From a virus, in IMG/VR virus record IMGVR_UViG_3300028563_000074, positions 1 to 22,974 of that record: a DNA stretch of 22,974 nt, one strand, 5' to 3'. This document shows, piece by piece, positions 9,109-22,974 of this stretch. A model generated the notes under the pieces. It made no database searches. It saw only the letters and a list, made by a program, of their open reading frames with translations, and was not told the DNA's origin. Every line of letters starts with the position of its first letter. The stretch's first letter is position 1. The translations under genes and the position numbers were made by a program.

Positions 9109-9873
9109 TCAGCCTATCTGCTGCGTCAGGATGTAGCTGCCGCCATGCAGGGTGGTCGGCGTGGCAGAGGTGTTCTCTTGACCCCAGTACACGGCAACCG
9201 TGCCGGCCGTCGTGGCCGTGAACACGCCGCGATACATCAGTGAGTTCTGGAGCCCGCTGCTGGTGCTGTAATTGACCGCAGCGTTGCCGAGCTGATACCC
9301 GTTGGCGACGGCCGCCTGCGTGCTGCCCACCACCGAGAACGAATACGCGTTCGAGAGGTTCGTCGTCCCGCTGAACTGCGCGGCCACCTGAATGCCTGGC
9401 GTCGCGCCGGCCACGCCATTGGTGTCGAACTCGATCAGGAACTCGACGATGTACGTGCCGGGACCCGGTATAGCGACCTGCAGGTCCGGGTCGATCAGCA
9501 GCGCGTTGGTCGTTCGCGAAGTGTTGGCCGGTTTGACAACCGGGTTGATCTCCAGCGGCTTCGGGACGTACGGGTCCGTCTGCTGTAGCAGCGTGCCGGT
9601 AGAGCTGAAGAGCTGCACGCCATACAGCAGCGCAGGGTTCAGGTAGATCGGATTGAAGCGCCCATTACCGTCGGCCGTGCACGACGGCTGCGCCTGCCCC
9701 GGCACCTGCGACAGCACCGTCATCAGCGCGCCGTCGGCGTACACGTTCTGCGGCGTGCCGAAGCTCGTGCCAGACACGAAGAACAGCCGATAGCAACCGG
9801 CCTGCACCTGCCCGGCGGTCGAGAGTGGTTTGTCGTACGGGTCGTAGAACAGTACGCCCTGCGGGAATGCCAT
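9109..9873 (-). CDS. Tail fibre or spike protein A
   Basis: A 254-aa paralogue of the downstream fibre gene. It shares the N-terminal adaptor (GVLFYDPYDKPLST, VYADGALMTVL, GNGRFNPIYL, VQLFSSTGTLLQQTDPYVP). The C-terminal domain starts near residue 137 with PGTYIVEFLIEF and ends with RGVFTATTAGTVAVYWGQ, then a strand GGSYILTQQIG, a beta-sandwich head pattern common in phage fibres. The same head is seen in the needle-position protein at 20767-21612. The start ATG 9873 overlaps the previous stop as TAATG. It probably binds the host surface as part of a trimer, which is inference. Confidence 0.7.
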   Translation of the reverse strand: MAFPQGVLFYDPYDKPLSTAGQVQAGCYRLFFVSGTSFGTPQNVYADGALMTVLSQVPGQAQPSCTADGNGRFNPIYLNPALLYGVQLFSSTGTLLQQTDPYVPKPLEINPVVKPANTSRTTNALLIDPDLQVAIPGPGTYIVEFLIEFDTNGVAGATPGIQVAAQFSGTTNLSNAYSFSVVGSTQAAVANGYQLGNAAVNYSTSSGLQNSLMYRGVFTATTAGTVAVYWGQENTSATPTTLHGGSYILTQQIG

Positions 9874-12800
9874 TATTCTTCGTCCTGTGTAGTGAACCGG
9901 CTAGCGGCGCGCTCTTGTCTCACGCCTTCGAGCCGCTTGGCGGCGCGTTCGAGGTGGGGCCGTAGAGCGCGTGCAGCAGCCGCTGCCTTTTCGCTTGGAG
10001 CTGCCGCCCCGGCGCCTGCGCCCGCCTTTCCTGCCACTGACTTAGCAGCTTCTGCGTATCGGCTACCTGCGAGGAATCCGGCATGCTCTGGAGCGCCGAA
10101 GAGGTTGTGGAAGTCGGGCGTTGATCGGATGAGGTCATCGGTAATTTCTCCATTCTTCACCAGCTCAGGGATCGTGGGGCCGAGCGCACCCATGCCTTTG
10201 CCCTGTTCATTCGCGTGTTCCATCGCCGTCTTTGCCCAGGACCACACGGTCTCCTGAACTTCGCGCGGTGTCCACGTCTCGCCGGTCTTCTTCGACAGCA
10301 TCTGCGCGGCCTGGCGCACCCTAGCGCTCATCGCGAGGTAGGTTGGCGATTTACCTGGGCCGCTATTGTTCAGCGTGCCGGCCATCTTTGTGGGCAGGAC
10401 ATTGGCGAACGTCGCCATGTGCGCATCGTTGGTCACTTCGTGCACGTTGTCGCGCAGGTTCTGGTAGAAGCTGTGCACCTTCGGCCCAGACAGCGTCATC
10501 TTTTCCGGGTCCGGATCGGTCAGTGCGCGAACACTATTCGCCACCCAACTGTGCAGGATGTTGCTGTTACCGGTCGCCTTCGGGTTCTTGAGCGCGGACT
10601 GCTCCATGAGTTTGCTAATCGCGGTCGCGTCCGTGGGCCGCCCGGCATTGTCCCAGTTGATGAATGTGCGCAGCGCGTTGTGGAAGTTCATCTGCACGGA
10701 CGTCTGCGGGCTCATGGCGGCCAGGAGCCCAGCGAAGCGCGGCGCGTCCGGCCCGAATACGTTGGTAATCGCCTGCGCCGAGTCCTTGTACCAGCCCTTC
10801 TTCGCTTGCCCAGCGAGCGCCGCGGCGGCGTATTCCTCGTGTGGCGGCAGGTGATTGAACGTGTCGATCAGCCGCTTGGCGGTGTCCGAGCGCAGCTGCG
10901 CGTTCTCCTGATCGGTCAGGAACTGCTTGACCTTGCCAGCCGAGTTGAGGTCACCCACCGCGCCGCGCTGGCCCGGTAGACGCGCGCCCAGCGGCTGCGT
11001 GTCCGTGCTCTTGTCTTGCTGGAAGTAATCCCGGCCGGCATTCCCTTTCTTCGGCGTCGTGGCCATGCTTCGATTGGCGCTGTACTCGTTGCCGCGCTCG
11101 GTGTCGCGCTTGACACCCCCGAGGTCACCCACCGCGCCGCGCTGGCTGGCCGCCTTCGCGTACTGACTCAACGGACGCGTGTTGGTCTGCGGTAGCGAGC
11201 GATGCACGTCCGCAAGCGTACGCCCGTCGTGCAATAGGAACTCGTCCGGCTTGAACGGCCGCCACTGGTCAGCGCCCGGCCCATGCAGGTCACCTTTGCC
11301 GCCAGACATCTGCGCAATAGACTCCTGCTTCAGGTCAGCCGCGAGCCCGTGCGCATCCTTGTCAGACAGCGCGTTGTCGATGGTCGCGACGAAGGTCGGT
11401 TCGGTCTTTGACTGCTGCACGGTGCCCTTGAGCACGTTCGCGCCGCGCGCCTTGAGCGCTGCCTGCACGTCGCTCGGCTTGAGCGCGCCGACCTTGTCGC
11501 CGACATTGAGCCCGACATTGAGAATCGCCGGCTGCTTCCTGGCACCGATGAAGCCGCCCTGCTTGCCGCCTGGGCCGCCGCCAGGCGTCGGCTTCTCTGG
11601 CGGCTTCGGCGTGAAGTCGTGCAGGTTGGTCACGCGCTCGGCGTTGTACTTTTTCAGCGCGTTCTCTTCTGCGTCGCCGGTGACAAACTTCTTCAGCTTC
11701 TCACCTACGCCAGCCATCTCAGCGGCGCCTACGGCCAGCGGGCCGCCAACGTGCGCAGCGACGGCGTCCGCGGCGCCGCGAGCCAGCGTGCCGGCCCCTT
11801 CACGTAGCTTGCTCGCGTTGACTTCCTGCGCGTGCGCGCCGGGGTAAGAGCGGTCCATCTTCAGGATGTTACCGGCGTGGTTCACGTCGGCCCAGCGCTT
11901 CATCTGCACGGGACTGAATACCGCGCCCATCTTCCCCTCGTTGTCCTGAAGGTACTGCGCGAACTTCGCCTGGTTCCAGCCGCCGCCTTCCATCTGGCCC
12001 GCTTTGAGCGCCCCGGCCGCGAAGTGATCGCGCATCGCGTCGTAGGCGTCGCGCGTCATCTTGTCCACGTCGTTGAACGCCTTGGCGTCCCCTATGGAAT
12101 GGAAGTAGTCCCGCGCGCCGCGCAGGGAGCTGAACACGTCATGGAACTGCTTGATGCTCGTGCCCTTGCCGGTCAGCGTCGGCATCACCTTTTCGGTCTG
12201 CACGGCGCGATTCGACTCGACCCCGTCTTCCGGCGGGAGGTATTTGGCGACCGCGTCGTTGTTATCGAACAGCCGGCCACGCGTGGCGCGGTTTAAACGC
12301 GACGCCTTGAAGACGTCCTGACCCATCGACTTGGCGAGCGAATCGTCGAGCGTGTCACGCACCATGCCGATCAGCTTGCCAGTCTTCGGCGTGTAGCTCT
12401 CGCGCAGGAACTGGCGCAGCTGTTCAAGCTGCTCCCCGCTGCCAGGCTTGAAGACGCCCTTGTCGTTGACCAGACCCAGCTCTTCGGCGCGGGTCATGAT
12501 GCCCTCGTAGAGCTGCTTGCCTTCGGTCGTACCGTAGAAGCGACCTTTCCCCTGTGTCATGAAGTCCTTGAACGGGCTCATGTCGGGGTTGAAGTTGCGC
12601 GCGGCGTTGCGCGCGGCTTCGTACATCGCGTCGTCGTGGCGCTTGAAGTGACCGACCGTCGCGTCGATAGCGGCCTGCAGCCGGCCGCCGCGGACGTTCT
12701 CCGCTGTCGGGCTCGTGTCAGCACCGCTACCCATTTCGGTGACGGCACTGCGCAGGGCGGCCTGCTCGTTGGCGATGACTTCCTTCGCTCGCGCGCCTAT

Positions 12801-15134
12801 CTTGTCCTTCATCTTCGAGGTCTGGAAGTCGTTGCCGCTCTCGGCGTGGTCGCGCGCGAGCGCGCTGGTGCGCACCTCATCGAGTGCGGGCAGCGTGCGG
12901 CGCAGATGTTCCGCGTTCGCGTTGAACTCATCGTTACCGACGCCCTTCGAGGCGGCGCCTTCGGAAGATGGCAGCGCAAAGCGCGACTTGACCGGCGCGC
13001 TGGGCTCAGCGCCGACGGGACCGGGCGCGCCGGGAGCGGCGCCGGGCGGTAGCGGCTTTTCGGCTACCTTATCCACCCATTTGTCAGCCGGCACGTCTGC
13101 CGCCTTGATGACAGCGTCCGGCAGTAATCCAGCTTTCTGCTGCGCGTAAACGGTCTTCGCCGCGCTCGCGCCACGGTTGGCTTCAGCGTTCGGCCCGAAG
13201 TTCACCCACGCGTTCTGGCCCAGCGTCTCGGTCGCCAGCGCCTTTTGAGCGAGCGGCGAATACATCGGCTTGTGAATGCGGTAGGCGTTGAACTCCCCGT
13301 CCGCGCGGAAGCCGTTACCCTCTTTCACGTGCCCGAAGTAGTCGTGCACGATCCGGAAGACGTCGTTGGCCAAGAGCTTCTTGCCGTCAACGGTGATGTT
13401 CGTCGGCCGCATCAGCGGGTGGTCGGTGTTGTTCTCGCCCTGCCCGAACCCTTCGTCAGTCGGGTAGACCCACAGATGGTTCCTGTTGCGCACGTCGAGT
13501 GTCGCGAGGCGCGGGTTGCCCTTGTACGGGTCTTCCTGGCCCGGCTTAATGAACTCGATCTTCAGTCCGGTGTTCTGGATGGCCTTGTACTGCGCGTTCG
13601 TTTCGCGAATGAGCGCGTCATAAGCGGCAGCCGTCGCCGGGTCGTCCGGCGTGTGCGGCATCCGCTCGTAGGCGTCCGCTATCATCGCGCCGCGGCTCGG
13701 CGTGATGGGCTCGTAGACACGCGGCGGATCGTGCGGTAGACCAGCAGAGCGCACGTAGTTGTAGGCCGCGGTGCGCGCGGCCGGGCTCGGGCCGAACTTC
13801 GTCGGCTGACCGTTGACCTTGACTTCCTGCGGCAGGCCATCCATCGGCGGCGCGCTGACTTCGGCGGGCATCGCCGGGCGCCGCATGGCGCCGGCCGTAC
13901 CTTGGCTGGTCTCTTCGGATTCGAAGCCGTGCGCCTTGTAGAACGCGTCTAGCTTCTCCTGGGGGATCAGTGTACCGGAGGCGCTGCGCTGCGGAATGGC
14001 GTCGAGGGTGAGGTTGGTGCCGTTGGCGTCCGCGAGCGCGGTCAAGCGCTGCATGGCAAGACCGCCCTGGCCCTGCCCTGGTTGGTCCGCAGTGAAGCTT
14101 TGAATATGCGCCGTCGCCGGGTCCGTGGGGTCCTTGACGGCCTCGACGGACAGGCCGCCGAGCCGGCGCTGGGCTGGCTCAGTCGGGTGCGGCTGGGTGG
14201 CGGCCTCGTAGGCGGCCATGAACTTGTCCTGCGGGGAGCCGGCGCCCGCTGGTGAGGCTTCCGCGGCCGGGGCAGACCCCGGAGGGACTGACGACTCAGC
14301 GGGCGCTGGCGTGGCCGGTTTGGCCGATCCTGTGGCCGGTTCTGGCGCATTGCCGGGCTGTGCGCCAGAAGGCGCTGCAGCGGCTGCTGGAGCCGGGCCG
14401 GGTTCGTCCTCTGGCATGGTGTCGGCGGGAGCGGCCGGCGGCGCAGCGGCTGCCGTAGCGGGCTCCGCGGCCGGTTTGGCCGTTTCTGCAGCCGCTTCCG
14501 TCTCGCCGACCTTGGCCGCGGTGGCCGCGGCCTTGGCGTTCGGGGTGGCCAGCTTCTCGGCCGCCTTCGCCGCGCCGCCTACCGTGGCCTTGGCCGCGGC
14601 TTCGCCGCCGCCGGCCGCGGCAGCCGTCATCCCGAGCCACGGGGTGACGTACTGCATGTTCCTGAGCACGTGGCTGACGTACTCGTCACCAAAAGTCGAG
14701 CGCGCCCACGCATTGACCTTGGCCAACGCTTCCGGTCCGTTCACCGCATGGTACGCCTTGGCAATCAGTTTGGACGGAACCTCGGCGAGGTCTTTGCCGT
14801 ACACCGAGCGCGGCGCCCATGTGGTCTTGTCCTGCACGGCGTCATCGACCGCGCGCGCCGCGTCCGGATCGCGAGTAGCCGCCAGCGTGCCGTAATAGCT
14901 CAGGCCGCCGGCAATCGGCGCAACGATGCCGCCGGTCGCGAGATTACCCGCGGCATCTACGGCGCCCATCATGAAATGGTTGGCTGTATCGAGCGCCTTG
15001 GCTACCGGGCTGAAGCTCGGAGGCGGCCCGGACGCGGGCGGCGGGGCCGGCATCGCGCTAATGTCGGTGCCGTCGTCCGGGGGCGCCGGCATGGCGCTGA
15101 TATCGGTATCGTCTACTTGTGCTGCAGCAGCCAC
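9873..15134 (-). CDS. Giant multidomain (polyvalent-type) virion protein, probably ejected
   Basis: A 1753-aa protein. Residues 1-40 hold two copies of TDISAMPAP; about 165-300 is an Ala/Pro/Glu-rich linker. Residues 325-415 look like a GNAT acetyltransferase (GQGQGGLAMQRLTALAD, later KLDAFYKAHGF). Residues 440-675 form a conserved-looking domain with VHDYFGH (596-602), RIHKPMYSPLAQ and TETLGQNAW, candidate metal or catalytic residues H597, D598, H602, E614 and H621. Long helical regions follow. QRGAVGDL occurs twice near 1334 and 1391. Near 1430-1650 a domain with GLLAAMSPQTSVQMNFHNAL resembles DUF7178. GTG 15134 overlaps the previous gene by 22 nt and has AAGG 7 nt upstream. Position after the ejection genes fits a protein injected with the DNA, as in P22 gp16 or large polyvalent proteins; domain functions are inferred. 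Confidence 0.8.
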   Translation of the reverse strand: MAAAAQVDDTDISAMPAPPDDGTDISAMPAPPPASGPPPSFSPVAKALDTANHFMMGAVDAAGNLATGGIVAPIAGGLSYYGTLAATRDPDAARAVDDAVQDKTTWAPRSVYGKDLAEVPSKLIAKAYHAVNGPEALAKVNAWARSTFGDEYVSHVLRNMQYVTPWLGMTAAAAGGGEAAAKATVGGAAKAAEKLATPNAKAAATAAKVGETEAAAETAKPAAEPATAAAAPPAAPADTMPEDEPGPAPAAAAAPSGAQPGNAPEPATGSAKPATPAPAESSVPPGSAPAAEASPAGAGSPQDKFMAAYEAATQPHPTEPAQRRLGGLSVEAVKDPTDPATAHIQSFTADQPGQGQGGLAMQRLTALADANGTNLTLDAIPQRSASGTLIPQEKLDAFYKAHGFESEETSQGTAGAMRRPAMPAEVSAPPMDGLPQEVKVNGQPTKFGPSPAARTAAYNYVRSAGLPHDPPRVYEPITPSRGAMIADAYERMPHTPDDPATAAAYDALIRETNAQYKAIQNTGLKIEFIKPGQEDPYKGNPRLATLDVRNRNHLWVYPTDEGFGQGENNTDHPLMRPTNITVDGKKLLANDVFRIVHDYFGHVKEGNGFRADGEFNAYRIHKPMYSPLAQKALATETLGQNAWVNFGPNAEANRGASAAKTVYAQQKAGLLPDAVIKAADVPADKWVDKVAEKPLPPGAAPGAPGPVGAEPSAPVKSRFALPSSEGAASKGVGNDEFNANAEHLRRTLPALDEVRTSALARDHAESGNDFQTSKMKDKIGARAKEVIANEQAALRSAVTEMGSGADTSPTAENVRGGRLQAAIDATVGHFKRHDDAMYEAARNAARNFNPDMSPFKDFMTQGKGRFYGTTEGKQLYEGIMTRAEELGLVNDKGVFKPGSGEQLEQLRQFLRESYTPKTGKLIGMVRDTLDDSLAKSMGQDVFKASRLNRATRGRLFDNNDAVAKYLPPEDGVESNRAVQTEKVMPTLTGKGTSIKQFHDVFSSLRGARDYFHSIGDAKAFNDVDKMTRDAYDAMRDHFAAGALKAGQMEGGGWNQAKFAQYLQDNEGKMGAVFSPVQMKRWADVNHAGNILKMDRSYPGAHAQEVNASKLREGAGTLARGAADAVAAHVGGPLAVGAAEMAGVGEKLKKFVTGDAEENALKKYNAERVTNLHDFTPKPPEKPTPGGGPGGKQGGFIGARKQPAILNVGLNVGDKVGALKPSDVQAALKARGANVLKGTVQQSKTEPTFVATIDNALSDKDAHGLAADLKQESIAQMSGGKGDLHGPGADQWRPFKPDEFLLHDGRTLADVHRSLPQTNTRPLSQYAKAASQRGAVGDLGGVKRDTERGNEYSANRSMATTPKKGNAGRDYFQQDKSTDTQPLGARLPGQRGAVGDLNSAGKVKQFLTDQENAQLRSDTAKRLIDTFNHLPPHEEYAAAALAGQAKKGWYKDSAQAITNVFGPDAPRFAGLLAAMSPQTSVQMNFHNALRTFINWDNAGRPTDATAISKLMEQSALKNPKATGNSNILHSWVANSVRALTDPDPEKMTLSGPKVHSFYQNLRDNVHEVTNDAHMATFANVLPTKMAGTLNNSGPGKSPTYLAMSARVRQAAQMLSKKTGETWTPREVQETVWSWAKTAMEHANEQGKGMGALGPTIPELVKNGEITDDLIRSTPDFHNLFGAPEHAGFLAGSRYAEAAKSVAGKAGAGAGAAAPSEKAAAAARALRPHLERAAKRLEGVRQERAASRFTTQDEE
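10947..10971 (-). repeat. 25-bp direct repeat, copy 1 (encodes QRGAVGDL)
   Basis: A 25-base exact match to 11121-11145, 174 nt (58 codons) away and in the same reading frame of the giant protein gene. It encodes QRGAVGDL in a Gly/Ser/Asp-rich linker. The perfect nucleotide identity points to recent duplication or to a constrained peptide motif such as a protease site. Confidence 0.8.
11121..11145 (-). repeat. 25-bp direct repeat, copy 2 (encodes QRGAVGDL)
   Basis: Second exact copy of the repeat at 10947-10971. The sequence between the copies encodes a polar linker (about residues 1340-1390), so the pair brackets a spacer between two putative domains. Confidence 0.8.
12291..12298. repeat. 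GTTTAAAC palindrome, copy 3
   Basis: Lies inside the giant virion gene on the opposite strand, read as CGT TTA AAC (R-L-N), again with the rare TTA codon. It is 5117 nt from copy 2. Confidence 0.6.
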
Positions 15135-16921
15135 TGTGTCGCCTTTGCGGTATTGCCGCTAAAGTGAGTGTCGGCGTATTTCTTGATCTGTGCCGGGGTC
15201 CATTTGAGCGCACCGGCTTTTTCGCCGGTCATGCCTTCCTCAAGCGCCTTCGAGCGCGGGAAGTATTTGTTGTTCCAGTCCGCGAAACTCGTCGGCGTGT
15301 TGCCGGCGTTCAGGTAACCGGGGATACGGCCGGCGAGGTCCTTGACGTAGTTCGCCTGCACGACCTGGGACTTCACCAGGTCCTGAAGAGCGCCGTACGG
15401 CATATCCTCGACATTCGGAAACGCCTTTTCGAGGTTTACCTTGACGTCGTACACGCCAGGCTTGCCGCCATAGGTTTCCTTCAGGTTCGCGACCGCGGCC
15501 TGCGTCAGGTACTTCGCCACTTCCGCGCGATGGTCCGCCGTGTCCGTGTCGTATCCGAGGGACGCGAGACGGTGCGCTATGGCGCCAGGCAGACCTTGAA
15601 TCGCGTTGATGTGCGATCCGTCCGGCGCACCCAGGATGCGCTGCGCGGCCTGAAAGTTCGTCAGCGCGGAGGAAGCCGCGGTGGCTAAGTCAGAGCCGTT
15701 CTGCTGCAGCTCTTTGCGCTGCGCGACGTAGGTGTCCTGCGTGCCCTTCTGAATAGTGGACGGCGTGCTGTTCGCTTTGCCGGGTGCGAGCGCGGGATCG
15801 CGATAAGCCTTGTCAGCCAGCGCGGCGCTGAGCACCGGGTCCGCTGTCGGCGACGAGGGTGGCCCAGCGGGCGCCGCGGCGGGCGCATTGGCCGGCGGCT
15901 TCGCCTGGCCGGCAACCTTCCCGATAGTGGCTCTCGTCGCCGCGCCCACGCCGCCACCTACCGTCGGCTGCGCGCCGGGGACACCGCCGCGCTGCGCAAC
16001 CTTGGACACCCAGTCAGCCAGCGACTGCGCGCCATTGCCGGACTGCGGTGACTGCCATGTCGGCACTTGCGTGACAGAGCCGTCAGTGTTGTGCACGTCA
16101 ACCGGCTGCAAGCCTTTCTCCGCGAGCGCTGACCACTGCTCCAACGATAAGCCGGACCGCTCGACGCCTGGCACCGGCTTACCGGTCTGCTCATCGACGT
16201 ACGTACCGTCAGTGCGCGCTACAGCCTTGCGCCCGGTGTACATGTGCGTAGCGCCGGCCACGTGCGCAGCGAAGGCGCGCGCGGCGCCGTCCTGCTCCGA
16301 CGGGTCAGCGAAATCTTTGCGAATCTGAGCCGCGGTGTTAGGCGCGACGGCGTCGAGCGCGTAAAGCGCACCGCTAGGCGCCGCTTCAGTTACCGCGTCA
16401 AACGCGTTGTAGAGGTTGTTCGCGTGAAACTGAGAGTGCGCGACGCGCGACCCGACAGCGTTGTCGCGGATCGTGGCGTACATCTTGCCCGTCTCGGGGT
16501 CGATGAACGTGCCCTTGGCGATATTCTGCTGCTCTTGTTCGGTGCCTTTCGGGTCAACGAAGAACTTCTGCGCGAGTGAGGCGTCGATCTTCGCGATATT
16601 CTCTGCCGACAGCGCGCTCGTGGTATGGGCCGCCACACCAGACTGGTCCGGCTGAGCGGCTTGCCCCGGCAGCGACGTATCGTCCGACGGCACGGCTGGC
16701 TGCTCGCCGCTGTGATCCGTCTGGTTGGTGAAATCGTTGATGATGTGCATGACCATCGGCATGCGCGCCTGCATGATCTGATTTTGCATCGCGGCTTGCT
16801 GGGTCTGCTGCTGCACGAGCCCGGTATTCGCGCGCTGCGCCGCCATAGCGGTCTGGCCTTGACCGAAGCTGTTGATCATCGCACCGTAGTCCTGCATCGG
16901 CTGGACTGGGAAATCTGCCAT
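15113..16921 (-). CDS. Ejection-type internal virion protein
   Basis: A 602-aa protein. The N-terminus (residues 1-60) is Gln/Ala/Met-rich and helical (GQGQTAMAAQRANTGLVQQQ). The middle has Ala/Pro-rich linkers (330-370) and polar helices. The C-terminus is helical with YNAGNTPTSFADW-like segments and ends LLQHK. No enzyme motif is seen; the long helical, low-Cys composition and the place after the other ejection genes match P22 gp20/gp16-type proteins that leave the capsid with the DNA. AGAGGA 8 nt before ATG 16921 overlaps the preceding stop. Assignment rests on position and composition. Confidence 0.65.
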   Translation of the reverse strand: MADFPVQPMQDYGAMINSFGQGQTAMAAQRANTGLVQQQTQQAAMQNQIMQARMPMVMHIINDFTNQTDHSGEQPAVPSDDTSLPGQAAQPDQSGVAAHTTSALSAENIAKIDASLAQKFFVDPKGTEQEQQNIAKGTFIDPETGKMYATIRDNAVGSRVAHSQFHANNLYNAFDAVTEAAPSGALYALDAVAPNTAAQIRKDFADPSEQDGAARAFAAHVAGATHMYTGRKAVARTDGTYVDEQTGKPVPGVERSGLSLEQWSALAEKGLQPVDVHNTDGSVTQVPTWQSPQSGNGAQSLADWVSKVAQRGGVPGAQPTVGGGVGAATRATIGKVAGQAKPPANAPAAAPAGPPSSPTADPVLSAALADKAYRDPALAPGKANSTPSTIQKGTQDTYVAQRKELQQNGSDLATAASSALTNFQAAQRILGAPDGSHINAIQGLPGAIAHRLASLGYDTDTADHRAEVAKYLTQAAVANLKETYGGKPGVYDVKVNLEKAFPNVEDMPYGALQDLVKSQVVQANYVKDLAGRIPGYLNAGNTPTSFADWNNKYFPRSKALEEGMTGEKAGALKWTPAQIKKYADTHFSGNTAKATQWLLQHK

Positions 16922-16934: not shown

Positions 16935-17948
16935 CTACGCCGGGATATTTATGCTCGGGGCCAAGGCAAGAATCGCCTGGTCCCATTGCGACTGAGTCAT
17001 GCCGCCCCACGCATTGTCGCCGTACTGCGTGTTGAGCTGATCCAGCGCGCTCTGCGCCAACTGATCGTAGTACGTGTTGGTCGCAACTTCCGGAATGGAT
17101 GAAATGTCCGGAGCTGAGTTCATCGCGTACGGGTTACCTACTGCGCTGCGGATGGCGGCGATATTTGGCATCAACGCCGTGTTGCCCTGGTTAGCCTGCG
17201 CCGTCTGGAGGGCCGAGAACGCCGACATCGCATCGTTTTCAATCGTCGTCGATTGATCCTTACCGATGCCAGCGCCCCACGTGCCGGTGGTCGGGTCGAG
17301 CACGTGGAAAGCATCGCTCCCGCTGGCAGTGTTGTTGCCGTACATGAACCCTAGATTACCAGAAGCTACGCCGCCCTGCCCGTTTATCGTCGGCGTCGTG
17401 AGCCCGAGCGCCTGCTCTTCAGCGGCGCTTAGACCCGTGCCACTAGAGCCGACGTTTCCGGCCGTTCCGATCCAGTCGAGCACATCTTGCACGAACTGAA
17501 CGCCGATACCAATAGCTGGCGCGTATTCTGAGGCCAGTGTGCCTACCGTTGACCCGATGCTGCTAGCTGCGCTACCGGCAGCCGCGCCGGCAGCCGCGCC
17601 GGCAGCCGCGCCGCCGCTATCGAAGAGGCTAGATGCCAGCCCGTACAGTTTCAACGCATCGACACCAGCGTTGACATCCGCGCCGATGTTGTTCGGATTC
17701 TGGATCGCGTTCACGATCCCCGCGACGTCGCCAGCCGCTCCTATGCCGGCACCGACAGACGACGGAAGCACCGATCCGCCAAGATCCTTCGCGCCGATAT
17801 TGTAGAGCCCAGCGGCGCCGCTCGCCGCGGCCACGCCGCTAGCGACCGACGGCTTGTTGATGGCCCCGATGATAGACGATATGTCAGTAGCGGCGCTCAG
17901 CCCCTGACCAATCGTCGGCATCGTGCCCGTGGCGCCGAAATTCGCCAC
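16935..17948 (-). CDS. Ejection-type protein, probably made as a -1 frameshift extension
   Basis: A 337-codon ORF from GTG 17948, but the start is doubtful. There is no Shine-Dalgarno sequence before that GTG or before the next ATG (17921). The frame is open for 29 more codons upstream, back through a -1 slippery heptamer at the end of the preceding gene, and the extra segment encodes TDISGTAP, similar to the TDISAMPAP repeats of the giant protein. I therefore think it is mainly expressed as the C-terminal half of a fusion. The sequence is Ala/Gly-rich with small-residue helices (AAAGAAAGAAAG near 113-124, VQFVQDVLDWIG near 151-162), like membrane-active P22 gp7/gp20-type proteins. It ends with a helical LDQLNTQYGDNAWGGM segment. 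Confidence 0.7.
   Translation of the reverse strand: MANFGATGTMPTIGQGLSAATDISSIIGAINKPSVASGVAAASGAAGLYNIGAKDLGGSVLPSSVGAGIGAAGDVAGIVNAIQNPNNIGADVNAGVDALKLYGLASSLFDSGGAAAGAAAGAAAGSAASSIGSTVGTLASEYAPAIGIGVQFVQDVLDWIGTAGNVGSSGTGLSAAEEQALGLTTPTINGQGGVASGNLGFMYGNNTASGSDAFHVLDPTTGTWGAGIGKDQSTTIENDAMSAFSALQTAQANQGNTALMPNIAAIRSAVGNPYAMNSAPDISSIPEVATNTYYDQLAQSALDQLNTQYGDNAWGGMTQSQWDQAILALAPSINIPA
17575..17610 (-). repeat. Three perfect 12-bp tandem repeats
   Basis: CCGGCAGCCGCG occurs three times in a row (plus-strand reading), encoding AAAG units in the Ala/Gly-rich segment of the ejection ORF. The unit is a multiple of 3, so slippage would change length without breaking the frame. Confidence 0.85.
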
Positions 17949-17994
17949 CGGCGCCGTGCCGCTAATATCGGTATTGAGATTGCCGCCTATACCA

Positions 17995-18041
17995 GCGTCG
18001 CCAGGGGTCGCGGCCCCCGTTGACGACGCGCCTAAAAACCC
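17995..18041 (-). promoter_or_regulatory. Programmed -1 ribosomal frameshift signal
   Basis: On the minus strand the upstream gene ends CTG GGT TTT TAG. The heptamer G GGT TTT (18041-18035) fits X XXY YYZ with X=G, Y=T, Z=T. After 5 nt comes a stem: GCGTCG (18029-18024) pairs with CGACGC (18000-17995), and inside it GGGG pairs with CCCC around a 7-nt loop. A -1 slip re-pairs on GGG TTT and continues TTA GGC GCG, exactly the open frame of the downstream ORF, so a 332 + 29 + 337 = 698-aa fusion results. An alternative is a miscounted T-run: one more T would also fuse the frames. Confidence 0.7.
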
Positions 18042-19030
18042 AGGTCGGTTAGATTAAAGTCTCCGGTGGTTGCGTTGCTACCGTAGTCTATGCTACCGAC
18101 ACCTGAGTAATCAGGAGTTGTGGTTGGCGCGTACGGATTCGACCCATCCGTCGCCGGGCTAGTGTATGCGTTACCCGGAGTCGCGAGCGGGTCATAATTC
18201 GGGCTCGTCGGATCGGTGCTGGGAGCCGATGAGGCGCCGCCGTAATTCGAGCTGCCGGCGCCAATGTAGTTTCCGTATTGGTCGTACTGGCTAACGGGCG
18301 CGCTATACGAGCCGCCGCTGCTGCTACCGCCACCCTTCAGCATGCCTAGCAGCTGATTCACAATGCTGCCGGCTGCGCCCGACCCGCTGGAGCCTGAGCC
18401 CCCAAACAGCGAATTGACGCCGTTCGTGACCGCGCCACCGACGCCGGCCACGCCGCTGGCGTTCTCGTTGCCCATCGTCTGCGATTCATTGGCAAGGTTG
18501 CCGGTCGTCTGCATCTGCGCGCTGGCGAGCCCTTGATTCGCCTGGTTGCCGAGGTTCGCCGTAGACAGTAGATTCTGCACGTAGTTCTGATACGCCGGAA
18601 GCGCAACCTGGCTGGAAATGTAGCTGCCGACCAGCCCAGGCGTACCAGAGTTGTAGAGATTACCCCCGGCGCCGATCATGCGTTGCGCGGCCTGAGTACC
18701 CTGGTTAACGGCCTGTGAGAAGCCAGGAATCTGCGACAGAAAGTCGGGGCTGAGCGCCGTGCTACCAGGCAGCCCTAGCGCGCTACCGAGCTGCGTGAAC
18801 GCGTTGTTGCCAAGCGCCCGCTGCCCGCTGTAGATGCCCTGCACGGCCGTGTTACCGGCGTTCGTGTTGGTCGTCGCGTTGGCGGTGCCAGTAATCTGCG
18901 CACCGGCGGCGTTGTTCGACGTTACCCCGCCAGCTACGCTGCCTCCGAGAGAGCCAAGCGAATTGATCAGATTGCCGTAGTTGATACTGCCATCTGGGTT
19001 CATCAGCGCAGCGCCAGTTGCATTTGCCAT
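18032..19030 (-). CDS. Ejection protein (P22 gp7-like; DNA transfer protein type)
   Basis: A 332-aa protein rich in Gly, Ser, Asn and Gln. Residues 40-200 are helical with repeated small residues (QGTQAAQRMIGAGGNLYNSG, then SYISSQVALPAYQNYVQNLLSTANLGNQANQG), a pattern typical of podovirus DNA transfer/ejection proteins that cross the cell envelope. Residues 210-332 are a Gly/Ser/Tyr/Pro-rich low-complexity tail ending NLTDLGF. AGGAAA lies about 6 nt before ATG 19030. The stop codon follows a slippery heptamer, so part of the ribosomes probably continue into the next ORF. Family name is from composition and gene order, not from a search. Confidence 0.7.
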   Translation of the reverse strand: MANATGAALMNPDGSINYGNLINSLGSLGGSVAGGVTSNNAAGAQITGTANATTNTNAGNTAVQGIYSGQRALGNNAFTQLGSALGLPGSTALSPDFLSQIPGFSQAVNQGTQAAQRMIGAGGNLYNSGTPGLVGSYISSQVALPAYQNYVQNLLSTANLGNQANQGLASAQMQTTGNLANESQTMGNENASGVAGVGGAVTNGVNSLFGGSGSSGSGAAGSIVNQLLGMLKGGGSSSGGSYSAPVSQYDQYGNYIGAGSSNYGGASSAPSTDPTSPNYDPLATPGNAYTSPATDGSNPYAPTTTPDYSGVGSIDYGSNATTGDFNLTDLGF

Positions 19031-19031
19031 T

Positions 19032-19532
19032 CTATTTTCCTGTTAGCCCGTCGCGCTCGGCCCAGCACGCTTTCAGCTGAGCGTCGTCGTGTCTCAAGGC
19101 GTCTGCGAGTTCGAGGGCAAGCTCTGCAGGTACTTTTCCCAGTCCGCCAGTGCTCGCGGTCCCTGTGGCTGATCCCGCGTGGGCGGGGCCGGCACTACCC
19201 AATGCGGGGTGGGCACTGCTGTGACTCGTATCGGCGTTGCGCAGCCGCTGCAGATCAGCGTCATGCTGGCCAGCATCCAGACTAAGTTCTTCTTCATAGC
19301 CGCTCGTCACCTTCGCCAGGTTGCTGGCGTATTCCGAATCATTCTGCTTGATCTGCGCCTCGGCGGCGGCCTGTACCTTCGCGGTCGCGGCCTGCACCGC
19401 CGCGATCTCGTGCGCGGCGCCCTTCTTCTGCTCGACCGCATCGTGGTGGAACCAGAAGACGATGGCGGCGGCCACGAGCGCGGCGTACACGTAATCGCGG
19501 AACGGGACCAGCTTAGCGAGTGTTGCGAACAT
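19032..19532 (-). CDS. i-spanin (Rz-like)
   Basis: A 166-aa inner-membrane spanin subunit. The start ATG 19532 shares a base with the holin candidate's TGA; an earlier in-frame start at 19574 would lie within that gene and add a non-membrane peptide. An N-terminal signal anchor spans about residues 14-28 (YVYAALVAAAIVFWF), followed by a long helical, coiled-coil-like Ala/Gln/Glu region to about 100 and a Gly/Ser-rich stretch. Cysteine occurs only near the C-terminus. With Rz1 it joins inner and outer membranes in the last step of lysis. The o-spanin gene is nested within it in the +1 frame. Confidence 0.85.
   Translation of the reverse strand: MFATLAKLVPFRDYVYAALVAAAIVFWFHHDAVEQKKGAAHEIAAVQAATAKVQAAAEAQIKQNDSEYASNLAKVTSGYEEELSLDAGQHDADLQRLRNADTSHSSAHPALGSAGPAHAGSATGTASTGGLGKVPAELALELADALRHDDAQLKACWAERDGLTGK
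19094..19297 (-). CDS. o-spanin lipoprotein (Rz1-like), embedded in Rz
   Basis: A 67-aa ORF wholly inside the i-spanin gene, in the +1 frame. It begins MKKNLVWMLASMTLICSGC, a lipoprotein signal peptide with lipobox ICSG-C and lipidated Cys at residue 19 (the -3 residue is Cys rather than the usual Leu). The mature part is short and Pro-rich (PIRVTAVPTPHWVVPAPP), as in Rz1. Nested Rz/Rz1 is a classical arrangement. Upstream of ATG 19297 only a weak GAGCGG is present, so it is probably translated at a low level. The spanin pair implies a Gram-negative host. Confidence 0.85.
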   Translation of the reverse strand: MKKNLVWMLASMTLICSGCATPIRVTAVPTPHWVVPAPPTRDQPQGPRALADWEKYLQSLPSNSQTP

Positions 19533-19723
19533 CAGTGCGCGTCCTGCTTCTTGTCGTCGTATATCACGAACCAATGGTACAGCCCGAGGATCGACACGGA
19601 CGTCGTGCAGCCGGTGACGAAAGACGAAATGTCGGGGTGTTTAAACAGGTACAGCCACAACGTAGCGATCACCGCCGTAATCGCACCGATAATAAACCAG
19701 TCGCGCGAGTCCTGAACGGTCAC
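19532..19723 (-). CDS. Small two-span membrane protein, holin candidate
   Basis: A 63-aa protein with two hydrophobic segments (WFIIGAITAVIATLWLYLF, about 9-27, and SFVTGCTTSVSILGLYHWF, about 34-52) and a short charged C-terminus (DDKKQDAH). This matches class II holin topology. GTG 19723 overlaps the lysozyme TGA as GTGA; the stop overlaps the spanin start as TGATG. Location between lysozyme and spanins supports the call. The second membrane protein upstream of the lysozyme could be the holin or antiholin instead. Confidence 0.6.
   Translation of the reverse strand: MTVQDSRDWFIIGAITAVIATLWLYLFKHPDISSFVTGCTTSVSILGLYHWFVIYDDKKQDAH
19639..19646. repeat. GTTTAAAC palindrome, copy 4
   Basis: Lies in the loop-coding part of the holin candidate, read as CTG TTT AAA CAC (L-F-K-H). 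It is 7348 nt from copy 3. Confidence 0.6.
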
Positions 19724-20193
19724 GGGTACTGCCCCGTCAGGAAGTAGTCCGTGATGCGCTCAGCACGCTGCCCGACTTCCGTGTACCACGGGGTCTTCTG
19801 GCCGTTTGTGTATAGCATCTGCTGTTTCATTTCCGGCCAGTTCTGCGCCTCAGCAGCGGCGCGCGCATCGTGGAACTTCTCCCACTTCCCGCGCATGTTG
19901 AAGCAGACTTCGACCAGCGCGTTCTGTCGGCACTGCGTGTCCATCTTCACCCACTCGGGCAGCTTCTGGGCGAACGCCAGCGCGCTGAGCAGGTCCCCGA
20001 GAAAGTAGCGGTCAGACACCGCCGGCAGGATCGTGAAGCCGGCCCAGCTCCTGCCCGGCGCCGGTAGCGGCAGCAGATGGCCGCGCCCTATCGTCCAGTT
20101 GCCGAGCGTGTCTGGGTAGGCTTCCAGTTTGTTGGCCTCGGCGGCGTCAATGTCGGCCGCCAGGCGCGGGTCAATGCGCGGGTCAGCAATCAT
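19720..20193 (-). CDS. Endolysin, T4-type lysozyme (GH24 muramidase)
   Basis: A 157-aa enzyme cutting the MurNAc-GlcNAc bond of peptidoglycan. The catalytic triad of T4 lysozyme (E11, D20, T26) is matched at identical spacing: E19, D28 and T34 in EANKLEAYPDTLGNWTIGRGH. The C-terminal part (QNALVEVCFNMRGKWEKF and TPWYTEVGQRAERI) is typical of the family. ATG 20193 forms ATGA with the previous stop; the longer open frame up to 20289 is an Arg-rich shadow. There is no signal peptide or SAR segment, so release depends on a holin. The length is usual for the family (about 145-165 aa). Confidence 0.93.
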   Translation of the reverse strand: MIADPRIDPRLAADIDAAEANKLEAYPDTLGNWTIGRGHLLPLPAPGRSWAGFTILPAVSDRYFLGDLLSALAFAQKLPEWVKMDTQCRQNALVEVCFNMRGKWEKFHDARAAAEAQNWPEMKQQMLYTNGQKTPWYTEVGQRAERITDYFLTGQYP

Positions 20194-20447
20194 TTGTGCT
20201 TTTCGAAGATGTGCACCAGCAGCGCGCCGCCCACGGACGCCGCGGCACTGGCGACGAGACTCCACACACGCGTGGCCCCGGCCTGCCACGACATCTTGCG
20301 CTCCACCGCCCCGATACGGTCACTGAGCACCTTGTCGTCCACGACGTGCTGTGTGAACGTCGTGTTCAGTGCCGTCAGACTGCCCTTGATCTCTCCGAGC
20401 GTCTGAGTCATTTCCAGTGCCCATGCCGGGGCGGCGTCGTCGCGCAT
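20190..20447 (-). CDS. XhlA-like membrane protein in the lysis cassette
   Basis: An 85-aa protein with a polar, coiled-coil-like N-terminal part (LGEIKGSLTALNTTFTQHVV, about 17-36) and one membrane span near the C-terminus (VWSLVASAAASVGGALLVHI), ending in basic FEKHK. This is the layout of haemolysin XhlA and several small phage lysis proteins. It overlaps neighbours as TAATG upstream and ATGA downstream and precedes the lysozyme directly. It may be a holin partner or antiholin; the exact function is not shown. Confidence 0.6.
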   Translation of the reverse strand: MRDDAAPAWALEMTQTLGEIKGSLTALNTTFTQHVVDDKVLSDRIGAVERKMSWQAGATRVWSLVASAAASVGGALLVHIFEKHK

Positions 20448-20766: not shown

Positions 20767-21612
20767 CTAGTTAAGTTGCTCAATATCCATGTACGCGTTT
20801 GCCGCCAGAAGCGTGGCATTCGCACTCGTGGAATTCTGTGCCCACCACAAACCTATCGCGCCGGGAGTCGTCGTTGTGACCGCCAACTCGAACTGAATGA
20901 AGTCGGTCGAGGTGGCGGTACTTATGGTCGCGAGCGATACCGCGGCGCCTGAACCCGTGAAGAGTACCGGCGGGAACGCCGCGCCGTTGACGACGCCCTG
21001 CACCGCCATGTTCACCGGTCCGCTAACCGAACCGGCTATGTTGACCTGAAACTTCGCGCCCTGCGTTCCCGTGATCGAGCCGCTGAACTGCAGCATGCCG
21101 CGAATACGGTACGAGCCCGCCGGCACCGCCGGGAAGTTCAAGTAGTTGTCCACCGCGAGCGTGATCGTGCTAGCACGATTCTGCTGCGCGGCTGTATGGT
21201 ACCCTACTACATACTTGCTCTGCAGAACGCCGTTGATGTAGTACCCGTTCGATACGTTTATCGTGCCGGCGCCCTGGTCCGTGAGCCCAGCGCCTACGTC
21301 AAGTCCAGAGCCCAGCAGGCTCAACGCCGGCTGACCGGCCACGCCGTTAATCGTCAGCGCGACCCCGCTGACAGGGGTCGGGATCGTGTAGTTCCCGTTC
21401 GCGCTCGGCGTCAGCGCGGTCGTGGAGATCGTCCCCGGCAACTGCTCGGTACCCGTTATAACGATGCCGGGACCGGCAATCGTGTTCCGGATATCCATGT
21501 TCTGCATGTGGTGCGTGATGAACGCACGGAACCAACCGGAGTCCCATTCCTTCGGGATGTTGCGCACCGCCCCGGAGGATATCCCCATCTTGACCGGTTG
21601 CGGATTAGCCAT
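20767..21612 (-). CDS. Needle-position virion protein with fibre-type head domain
   Basis: A 281-aa protein immediately downstream of the gp10-like gene, overlapping it by one base (TGATG). The N-terminal region contains IPKEWDSGWFRAFITHHMQN (about 19-38), probably an attachment helix. The middle is Gly/Thr/Val-rich beta structure. The C-terminal domain (about 165-281) begins PAGSYRIRGMLQFSG and ends with PGAIGLWWAQNSTSANATLL and NAYMDIEQLN, clearly like the head of the fibre protein at 9109-9873. In P22 the tail needle gp26 occupies this place. A tail-tip or fibre role is likely; the exact role is inference. Confidence 0.65.
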   Translation of the reverse strand: MANPQPVKMGISSGAVRNIPKEWDSGWFRAFITHHMQNMDIRNTIAGPGIVITGTEQLPGTISTTALTPSANGNYTIPTPVSGVALTINGVAGQPALSLLGSGLDVGAGLTDQGAGTINVSNGYYINGVLQSKYVVGYHTAAQQNRASTITLAVDNYLNFPAVPAGSYRIRGMLQFSGSITGTQGAKFQVNIAGSVSGPVNMAVQGVVNGAAFPPVLFTGSGAAVSLATISTATSTDFIQFELAVTTTTPGAIGLWWAQNSTSANATLLAANAYMDIEQLN

Positions 21613-22974
21613 CAGTTCGTACCTGGTTCGAACGTCGCCTGCACGTCTACCGCGAATGTCGGTGTCGGATCAGTGATCCGGAACCGCAGCGACAGGTCGC
21701 GGCTCTGACCGAGGTTCCACCATATAGCGCGGCTGTCGAACTGTCCGGGCAACCCGAGGTTGACCGGGTCCTGGAACGACGCGTACGTGAACCCGTCCGT
21801 GGACATCAGCATGTCGATCACTGGCGCCACCGTCATGGACGCGCCCTCTCCCGGCGTGACCACTACCTCGACCCGACGCGTCACCAGCCGCTGGTGCTGG
21901 TTGTAGTACGACTGCATCGTGAATTCGCACACCTGCGGCGTGCCGAATTCCGTGAAGATCGCCGGATCGAGAATGCCTACCTGACTCGTCAGCGAATCGC
22001 CGATCAACTGGCCGCCGAGCCCGTTGTAGTAGCACAGCGCGCGCCAGCCGCCCAGCGGCGTGCCATTGTAGACCACGCTCGGCGACCCGAACTGGTTGAA
22101 CGAGCCCGACGGAGCGAAGGACGCCAGCTCGAACCACTTCTGCGTCAGGCAGTCGTAGCACAGCGTGCGGCCCTGCAGCCCTTCGGGCGAGATCGCGTTC
22201 GGCAGCTGTATGATGTACAGCGGGTGCCCGGATACCGTCGGCGTCAGCGCGTATGCGCCACTCAGATTGCCGGCGTTGCCGATGGGTGACGCGATAGTCT
22301 GAAGAATCTGCTCGATGCCGCTGTTCGACACGCGCATCGGCGTCTGTCCATTGCGACGACGCACGGTCAGGTCGTTCGCAACCCAGAAGACGGTCTGGTC
22401 TTGGAACCCTACCGTGTAGCCGCAGAGCGGATGGCAGCCCTGCGATATGAAACTGTCGGGCGCCGCGGCGAACGGTGAGCCGGTCGGGTTACCGGAGTTG
22501 ATGTAGCCCTCGGCCGTGCGCGTGCCTATCAGGATCACTTCGCGATGGTCCGTGGCGCCGCCGACAAACAGGTCGGTGCCGAACTCGCGCGAGAACGATG
22601 CGGCGGTCGTGAACGTGATCTGGTTGTTGCCAGACACGATCCGGCCGTCGTCGTTGAAGAACGTCAGACCATTAAGCGCCAGAAACACCATGTATGAGTC
22701 TACGAACCAAACGTCGAACGCGCCGAGCGTGGTGAAGAACGCCGCGCTAAGCTGCGCCCAAGCGGTCCCCGACGTGAAGTTCGGCTGGTACGTCCAGGCG
22801 TTCGACGTGCCAGGCTGCAGGATAAGCAGGCAGGCGCCGTTGTCGCACATGCGCACAAAGCCGGTGCCCGTGATCTGCGACGTGTTCAGCGGGCCGACCA
22901 AACTGCCTGACTGGCTGATAGCATTCAGGTTCATAGAGTACAAGTTCTGGCCGATGACGACGTACTGTACGCCC
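21612..22974 (-). CDS. P22 gp10-like packaged-DNA stabilisation protein (5' end outside window)
   Basis: An open frame of 453 visible codons runs off the right edge, so the start is missing; the TTG at 22943 is not taken as a start because the frame continues upstream as GVQYVVIGQN. It is beta-rich with features expected of the gp10/Phage_stabilise family: DVWFVDSYMVFLALNGLTFF, QDQTVFWVANDLTVRRRNGQTPMRVSNSGIEQ (as two adjacent parts), and a repeating WD-like strand pattern. P22 gp10 (472 aa) forms a hexameric tail ring that closes the portal after DNA packaging. The remaining upstream part is probably short. It leads the late gene order seen in P22: 10, needle, small protein, ejection proteins. 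Confidence 0.75.
   Translation of the reverse strand, partial: GVQYVVIGQNLYSMNLNAISQSGSLVGPLNTSQITGTGFVRMCDNGACLLILQPGTSNAWTYQPNFTSGTAWAQLSAAFFTTLGAFDVWFVDSYMVFLALNGLTFFNDDGRIVSGNNQITFTTAASFSREFGTDLFVGGATDHREVILIGTRTAEGYINSGNPTGSPFAAAPDSFISQGCHPLCGYTVGFQDQTVFWVANDLTVRRRNGQTPMRVSNSGIEQILQTIASPIGNAGNLSGAYALTPTVSGHPLYIIQLPNAISPEGLQGRTLCYDCLTQKWFELASFAPSGSFNQFGSPSVVYNGTPLGGWRALCYYNGLGGQLIGDSLTSQVGILDPAIFTEFGTPQVCEFTMQSYYNQHQRLVTRRVEVVVTPGEGASMTVAPVIDMLMSTDGFTYASFQDPVNLGLPGQFDSRAIWWNLGQSRDLSLRFRITDPTPTFAVDVQATFEPGTN

Follow-up and report, generated by a model that had tools for sequence, protein, structure and literature searches.

The window analysed in this study is the entire IMG/VR contig IMGVR_UViG_3300028563_000074 (22,974 nt), and all features described here are located on its minus strand. 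The subject is the junction between two genes, up332 and dn366, at which a programmed -1 ribosomal frameshift is predicted. The upstream gene, up332 (18032..19030), is read in the 0 frame, begins with an ATG that is preceded by the Shine-Dalgarno sequence AGGA, and encodes 332 amino acids (aa). Its 3' end reads ...GAC CTG GGT TTT TAG, in which the slippery heptamer G_GGT_TTT (18035..18041) is immediately followed by the stop codon TAG (18034-18032). The downstream gene, dn366 (16935..18053), is a Gly/Ala-rich open reading frame (ORF) in the -1 frame that is open from 18053 and through the slip site, and that would add 366 aa if it was entered there, giving a predicted fusion of 698 aa. The heptamer lies in the 0 frame within the 8-codon overlap of the two ORFs (18053-18032). 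A preliminary description of this DNA had reported the ending of the 332-aa gene with its heptamer, a stem downstream of it, a -1 ORF lacking a Shine-Dalgarno sequence or a convincing start, and the length of the fusion, all of which we reproduced.

The up332 product matches phrog_598 ('DNA ejection', E value 2.8e-6), a family that is also matched by the gp7-like genes of the related phages L138 (8.5e-24), L142 (1.2e-21) and L135 (2.6e-21), and it is homologous to the C-terminal ~300 aa of a 713-aa protein of another relative, L011. The gene is located after the head-closure gene Hc3 and then lysis-type genes, which is the position of a P22 gp7-like gene, and L011 shares this order. These matches suggest that up332 is a gp7-like ejection-protein homologue and a probable DNA-ejection protein. 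Its AlphaFold model has a pLDDT of 45. For dn366, no PHROG, Pfam or phage tblastn match was found, so that it is not assigned to gp20 or gp16 by sequence, and the hydropathy maximum of its product (1.33) is under the usual transmembrane threshold. The two genes had previously been described as ejection-protein genes, a label that holds for up332 through phrog_598 but that dn366, having no family match, owes to its position. Searches of phage collections with up332 and dn366 gave no matches, and single-protein viral scans returned nothing beyond a twin contig of the window, IMGVR_UViG_3300031240_000122.

Slip site, hairpin and start-less segment

In a -1 slip on G_GGT_TTT, the P-site codon would change from GGT to GGG and the A-site codon would be TTT before and after. 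The heptamer is followed by a 5-nt spacer, TAGGC (18030..18034), that includes the 0-frame stop codon, and then by a 35-nt candidate stimulatory hairpin (17995..18029), GCGTCGTCAACGGGGGCCGCGACCCCTGGCGACGC. The hairpin runs from GCGTCGTC to GGCGACGC, is closed by GCGTCG.../...CGACGC, and consists of a 9-bp outer stem and an inner GGGG/CCCC helix. Its distance of 5 nt from the heptamer fits the ~5-9 nt that are required for a downstream structure in frameshifting, and a 45-nt stretch with the hairpin folds at -23.4 kcal/mol (z of -1.75 against dinucleotide shuffles).

Motif and minimum free energy (MFE) statistics were based on a background set of 21 related loci comprising 69,100 codons. The MFE of the hairpin, calculated in a 37-nt slot 5 nt past the slip site, is below that of 99.95% of codon positions, and 35-nt closures with at least 7 outer pairs were observed at 0.085% of positions in the related phages. 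In-frame heptamers of the X_XXY_YYZ type occur 100 times in the background set, which corresponds to ~0.012 expected per 8-codon overlap. GGGTTTT itself was found in frame three times, namely at the window junction, at the corresponding junction of L138, and once inside the downstream ORF of L138. The last of these (7247-7253 of L138) has no evident role. Reading of the TAG as a sense codon was also considered and was rejected, since the 0 frame reaches another TAG 15 codons later.

dn366 is in the -1 frame, has no initiation site of its own, and shows coding codon usage before its first start. No start codon is found for 86 nt after the slip site (17949..18034). The first one is a GTG at 17948 and the next an ATG at 17921, and neither has a Shine-Dalgarno sequence, whereas up332 and the next virion gene, p602, have good ones. 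In the -1 frame, the coding score of the 30 start-less codons is +8.6, compared with -16 +/- 7.4 in non-coding frames, 0.35% of which score as high, and their usage is like that of the remaining late genes. Translation of this segment had been argued earlier from the motif TDISGTAP, which was said to be present elsewhere in the virion genes. In the six frames of the window, the cores TDISG, DISGT and ISGTA occur just once, in this segment, and the repeat argument therefore fails; translation is supported instead by codon usage and by the alignment with L138.

The junction in related phages

Relatives were gathered stepwise, by Hc3, then by p602 aligned with L011, and then by the gp7-like domain, with p602 as the marker gene, and ~35 were found. 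The junction is visible in four lineages in which the gp7-like gene comes first: the window with its twin, L138 (IMGVR_UViG_3300012917_000038), L135/L136, and L142 (IMGVR_UViG_3300047160_004820). Each of these lineages has its downstream ORF in the -1 frame with respect to the gp7-like gene.

L138 is distant from the window, with a p602 homologue that is 35% identical, and it carries the same signal. Its gp7-like gene (305 aa) ends CAG GGT TTT CTG TAG, and 125 nt of its -1 ORF pass without a start, the first GTG lying 122 nt past the stop. The elements are in the same register at both junctions: GGGTTTT is followed by TAGGC and a 35-nt hairpin in the window, and by CTGTA, also 5 nt, and a 35-nt hairpin in L138. 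The L138 hairpin is closed by GCGCCAC.../...GTGGCGC, spelled differently from that of the window, and its MFE is in the lowest 0.2% of codon positions in the same 21-locus comparison. All 8 of the compared pairs form in both hairpins, with three changed on both sides and one changed on one side, and most of this pairing was lost when the pairing partner was slid by 1-3 columns. The signal thus recurs, with compensatory changes, in a second lineage.

The start-less part of the L138 ORF also has coding usage, as its 41 codons score 17.5 against a null of -14 +/- 10 and a coding mean of 16.9. The alignment with L142 and L135 takes in residues encoded before its first GTG, and residues 31-60 of the -1 product, half of which precede the only GTG, are 70% identical to L142. 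The pairwise similarity between dn366 and the L138 -1 product is weak but specific (shuffle z of 6.1, with controls at 1.1-2.4), and the alignment starts before the first GTG in both. A profile of L142, L135 and L138 gave no significant match to dn366.

Comparison of homologues for the heptamer and the -1 relation had been suggested in the preliminary description. Both are kept in L138, where the start-less ORF is longer, but the junction is not universal, as L135/L136 and L142 lack the signal and start the downstream ORF with an ATG. Independently started homologues had been named beforehand as evidence against a frameshift; these two lineages are such homologues, but both lack the heptamer.

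About 30 other relatives have one ORF, of 570-786 aa where complete, with the gp7-like domain at the C-terminus and a Gly/Ala-rich domain at the N-terminus. No significant profile match was obtained between dn366 and these N-terminal domains, and homology is not claimed. The single-ORF set (L011, L090-L100, most of L103-L133, and L146) is a large uncultivated P22-like family whose Gly/Ala-rich N-terminus is variable. L146 (PLES01000005.1) is the sole relative from genome assemblies and is included in a bog metagenome-assembled genome labelled Solirubrobacterales. This hints at an actinobacterial host, which is possible but unproven, and mis-binning could explain it.

Weighing of the proposed frameshift against other explanations

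The ribosome-slip signal is very probably real, because a phage as distant as L138 carries it with a differently spelled hairpin. We put at roughly 0.85 the probability that the junction directs a programmed -1 ribosomal frameshift, yielding a gp7-like protein together with a smaller amount of a C-terminally extended version. The preliminary description had read the locus in this way, and the reading is supported chiefly by L138, with its same heptamer, same spacer length and compensatory hairpin changes. Most ribosomes would stop at the TAG (18034-18032) and release the gp7-like ejection protein of 332 aa. The 35-nt hairpin would cause a minority to pause and to slip on G_GGU_UUU, at which tRNA-Phe would re-pair fully with UUU and tRNA-Gly would shift from GGU to GGG, and these ribosomes would add 366 Gly/Ala-rich residues to give the 698-aa fusion. 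Two gp7-like forms would be made in this way, in a ratio set by the efficiency of slippage in vivo, and both would be expected to enter the virion and to act in DNA ejection. It may be speculated that the Gly/Ala-rich domain on some gp7-like copies is a membrane or conduit element.

The A-site tRNA would keep its UUU:UUU pairing in this slip, which fits the rule that the best bacterial slip motifs permit cognate A-site re-pairing (PMC4066793). R_RR.U_UU.Y heptamers are described as shift-prone in E. coli (PMC4066793), and G_GGU_UUU is among the most shift-prone heptamers for mammalian ribosomes (PMC5009743).

Several observations weigh against a programmed frameshift. The z values of the window hairpin against dinucleotide shuffles are modest (-1.75 to -2.0) and vary with the stretch folded, and the shuffle control for covariation (76/500) does not discriminate when two sequences only are compared. 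The signal was found in two distinct lineages only (window/twin and L138), and in L142 and L135/L136 the same gene pair has an ordinary ATG, 2 and 8 nt past the stop, respectively, and no heptamer. LGF C-termini are also found in L126, L132 and L133 (GGG TTT TAA), relatives without a frameshift, so that conservation of the protein may account in part for the GGT TTT codons. In the gp7 tree, the branch of the window is very long (2.94) and falls with L011/L123, two phages of the single-ORF type, a placement that would be compatible with either common descent of the frameshift module with L138 or convergence.

The most probable alternative, although an unlikely one, is that ribosomes terminate at the TAG and re-initiate at GTG 17948 or ATG 17921, so that dn366 would be a separate protein of ~337 aa. 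The coupled ATG of the same gene pair in L135/L136 and L142 favours this, as does the existence of the GTG. That GTG, however, is located 83 nt past the stop, and it lacks, like the ATG, a Shine-Dalgarno sequence, while the segment before it has coding codon usage. In L138 the GTG is even farther from the stop, and residues conserved with L142 and L135 are encoded before it. Re-initiation would also make the combination of heptamer and hairpin coincidental in both the window and L138.

Slightly less likely again is a broken gene, in which a single fused ORF of the ancestor would have gone from T6 to T5, through a mutation or an error of assembly, and nothing would be programmed. A run of six Ts would yield the exact fusion sequence, and ~30 relatives hold single long ORFs of similar size in the same position. 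These ORFs, however, show the opposite domain order, with the gp7-like domain C-terminal, and thus do not represent an unbroken version of the window gene pair. In addition, the T5 run at the junction is identical in the twin contig, an independent sequence that matches the window at 99.64% over 8,869 bp (32 substitutions, zero gaps), the codon usage downstream is intact, and L138 has the same arrangement with a covarying hairpin and with T4 only, which indicates that the T run is not the conserved feature. None of the substitutions between the window and the twin is inside dn366, and they hence hold no selection signal for it.

Transcriptional slippage on the T run, which would produce a mixed mRNA pool instead of a ribosomal frameshift, is the least likely explanation, since the T5 of the window does adjoin G3 but the T4 of L138 is short for polymerase slippage, and the conserved elements, a heptamer in frame and a hairpin that follows it after 5 nt, are a ribosomal design.

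Genome context and comparison with known systems

The phage is known from metagenomes only and is a short-tailed, P22-like podovirus. It was placed among the P22-like podoviruses by its Hc3 gene (21612..22943), which encodes a P22 gp10-like head-closure protein and whose 5' end is beyond the window. The minus strand forms a late operon in the order Hc3, a 281-aa gene, an endolysin-like gene, a 180-aa gene in the Rz position, up332, dn366, p602 and p1753. The endolysin-like and Rz-position genes (19032-20289) are included in the structural operon, between the head-closure and ejection genes, and the same is observed in L011. The p602 gene (15113..16921) is the next virion gene after dn366, in the gp20/gp16 position, and has its own Shine-Dalgarno sequence, AGAGGA. 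The very large late protein p1753 (9873..15134; 1753 aa) follows p602 and gave weak matches to three PHROGs only, the function of each being unknown. It has a partial homologue in L011, its counterparts at the same place in relatives are 1090 to 1757 aa when complete, and it is possibly the largest ejection or tail component. Most of the substitutions between the window and the twin (23/32) cluster in the Hc3 region (21636-22947), and the stretch from the lysis genes through dn366 is nearly free of them, which suggests recombination or mixed strains.

Frameshift-extended virion proteins are established in T7/T3 gene 10, Lactobacillus phage A2 and Listeria phages (PMC5009743). Like T7/T3 10A/10B and phage A2, the window has a predicted -1 frameshift, located at the 3' end of a probable virion protein gene, that would give a minority, C-terminally extended form (PMC5009743). 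In those phages a major capsid protein or another major virion protein is extended, whereas the product here, predicted from sequence, would be a gp7-like DNA-ejection protein with a 366-aa Gly/Ala-rich extension. The junction also resembles that of lambda G/GT, with a -1 slip on G_GGN_NNN near the end of the upstream gene and a -1 ORF without its own start. Unlike in lambda, a gp7-like ejection gene stands upstream, and no long tail or tape measure gene was seen. Mature lambda virions do not contain the G/GT products (PMC5009743). The location is not that of a tail assembly chaperone, which in long-tailed phages is encoded between the major tail protein and the tape measure, as P22-like Hc3 and ejection genes surround it and no tape measure family match was found among the window proteins scanned.

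The mechanism itself has precedents among tail chaperones and major virion proteins, capsid proteins included, and its use in an ejection protein would be the new aspect. No earlier case of a frameshift in ejection (pilot) proteins was found in the open-access library searched, which leaves out most subscription papers. If the proposal is true, a set ratio of two gp7-like forms is required for ejection in some podoviruses, and this would offer a way to study a machine in which copy numbers are little understood. Automated annotation would label dn366 a short orphan gene or lose its N-terminus. The chances appear about even that a programmed -1 frameshift controls the proportions of plain and extended gp7-like protein in some P22-like podoviruses, that other phages use a coupled ATG or a reversed in-frame fusion with a comparable Gly/Ala-rich domain, and that this is the first recoding in the DNA-ejection apparatus. 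Together, the frameshift, the ATG just past the stop and the reversed single ORF make up a natural series of arrangements with which to ask why the gp7-like domain joins a partner.

As in P22 with gp7, gp20 and gp16, the order in the window is Hc3, followed at a distance by the gp7-like gene with its phrog_598 match and then by two more large genes. These three P22 proteins are ejected, with ~12 gp7, 30 gp20 and 12 gp16 copies injected per virion (PMC8402733), and a published table lists the T7 gp14/P22 gp7 class as the conduit component in the outer membrane (PMC8954989). In P22, however, gp7, gp20 and gp16 are separate ordinary ORFs, and no P22 counterpart of the -1 extension was found. The single-ORF relatives share with the window gp7-like and Gly/Ala-rich domains in the corresponding position, ahead of the p602 homologue, but their Gly/Ala-rich domain is N-terminal and in frame, and it has no significant homology to dn366. 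The gp7 of P22 is separate and short, whereas the gp7-like domain of the single-ORF relatives is the C-terminus of a long protein.
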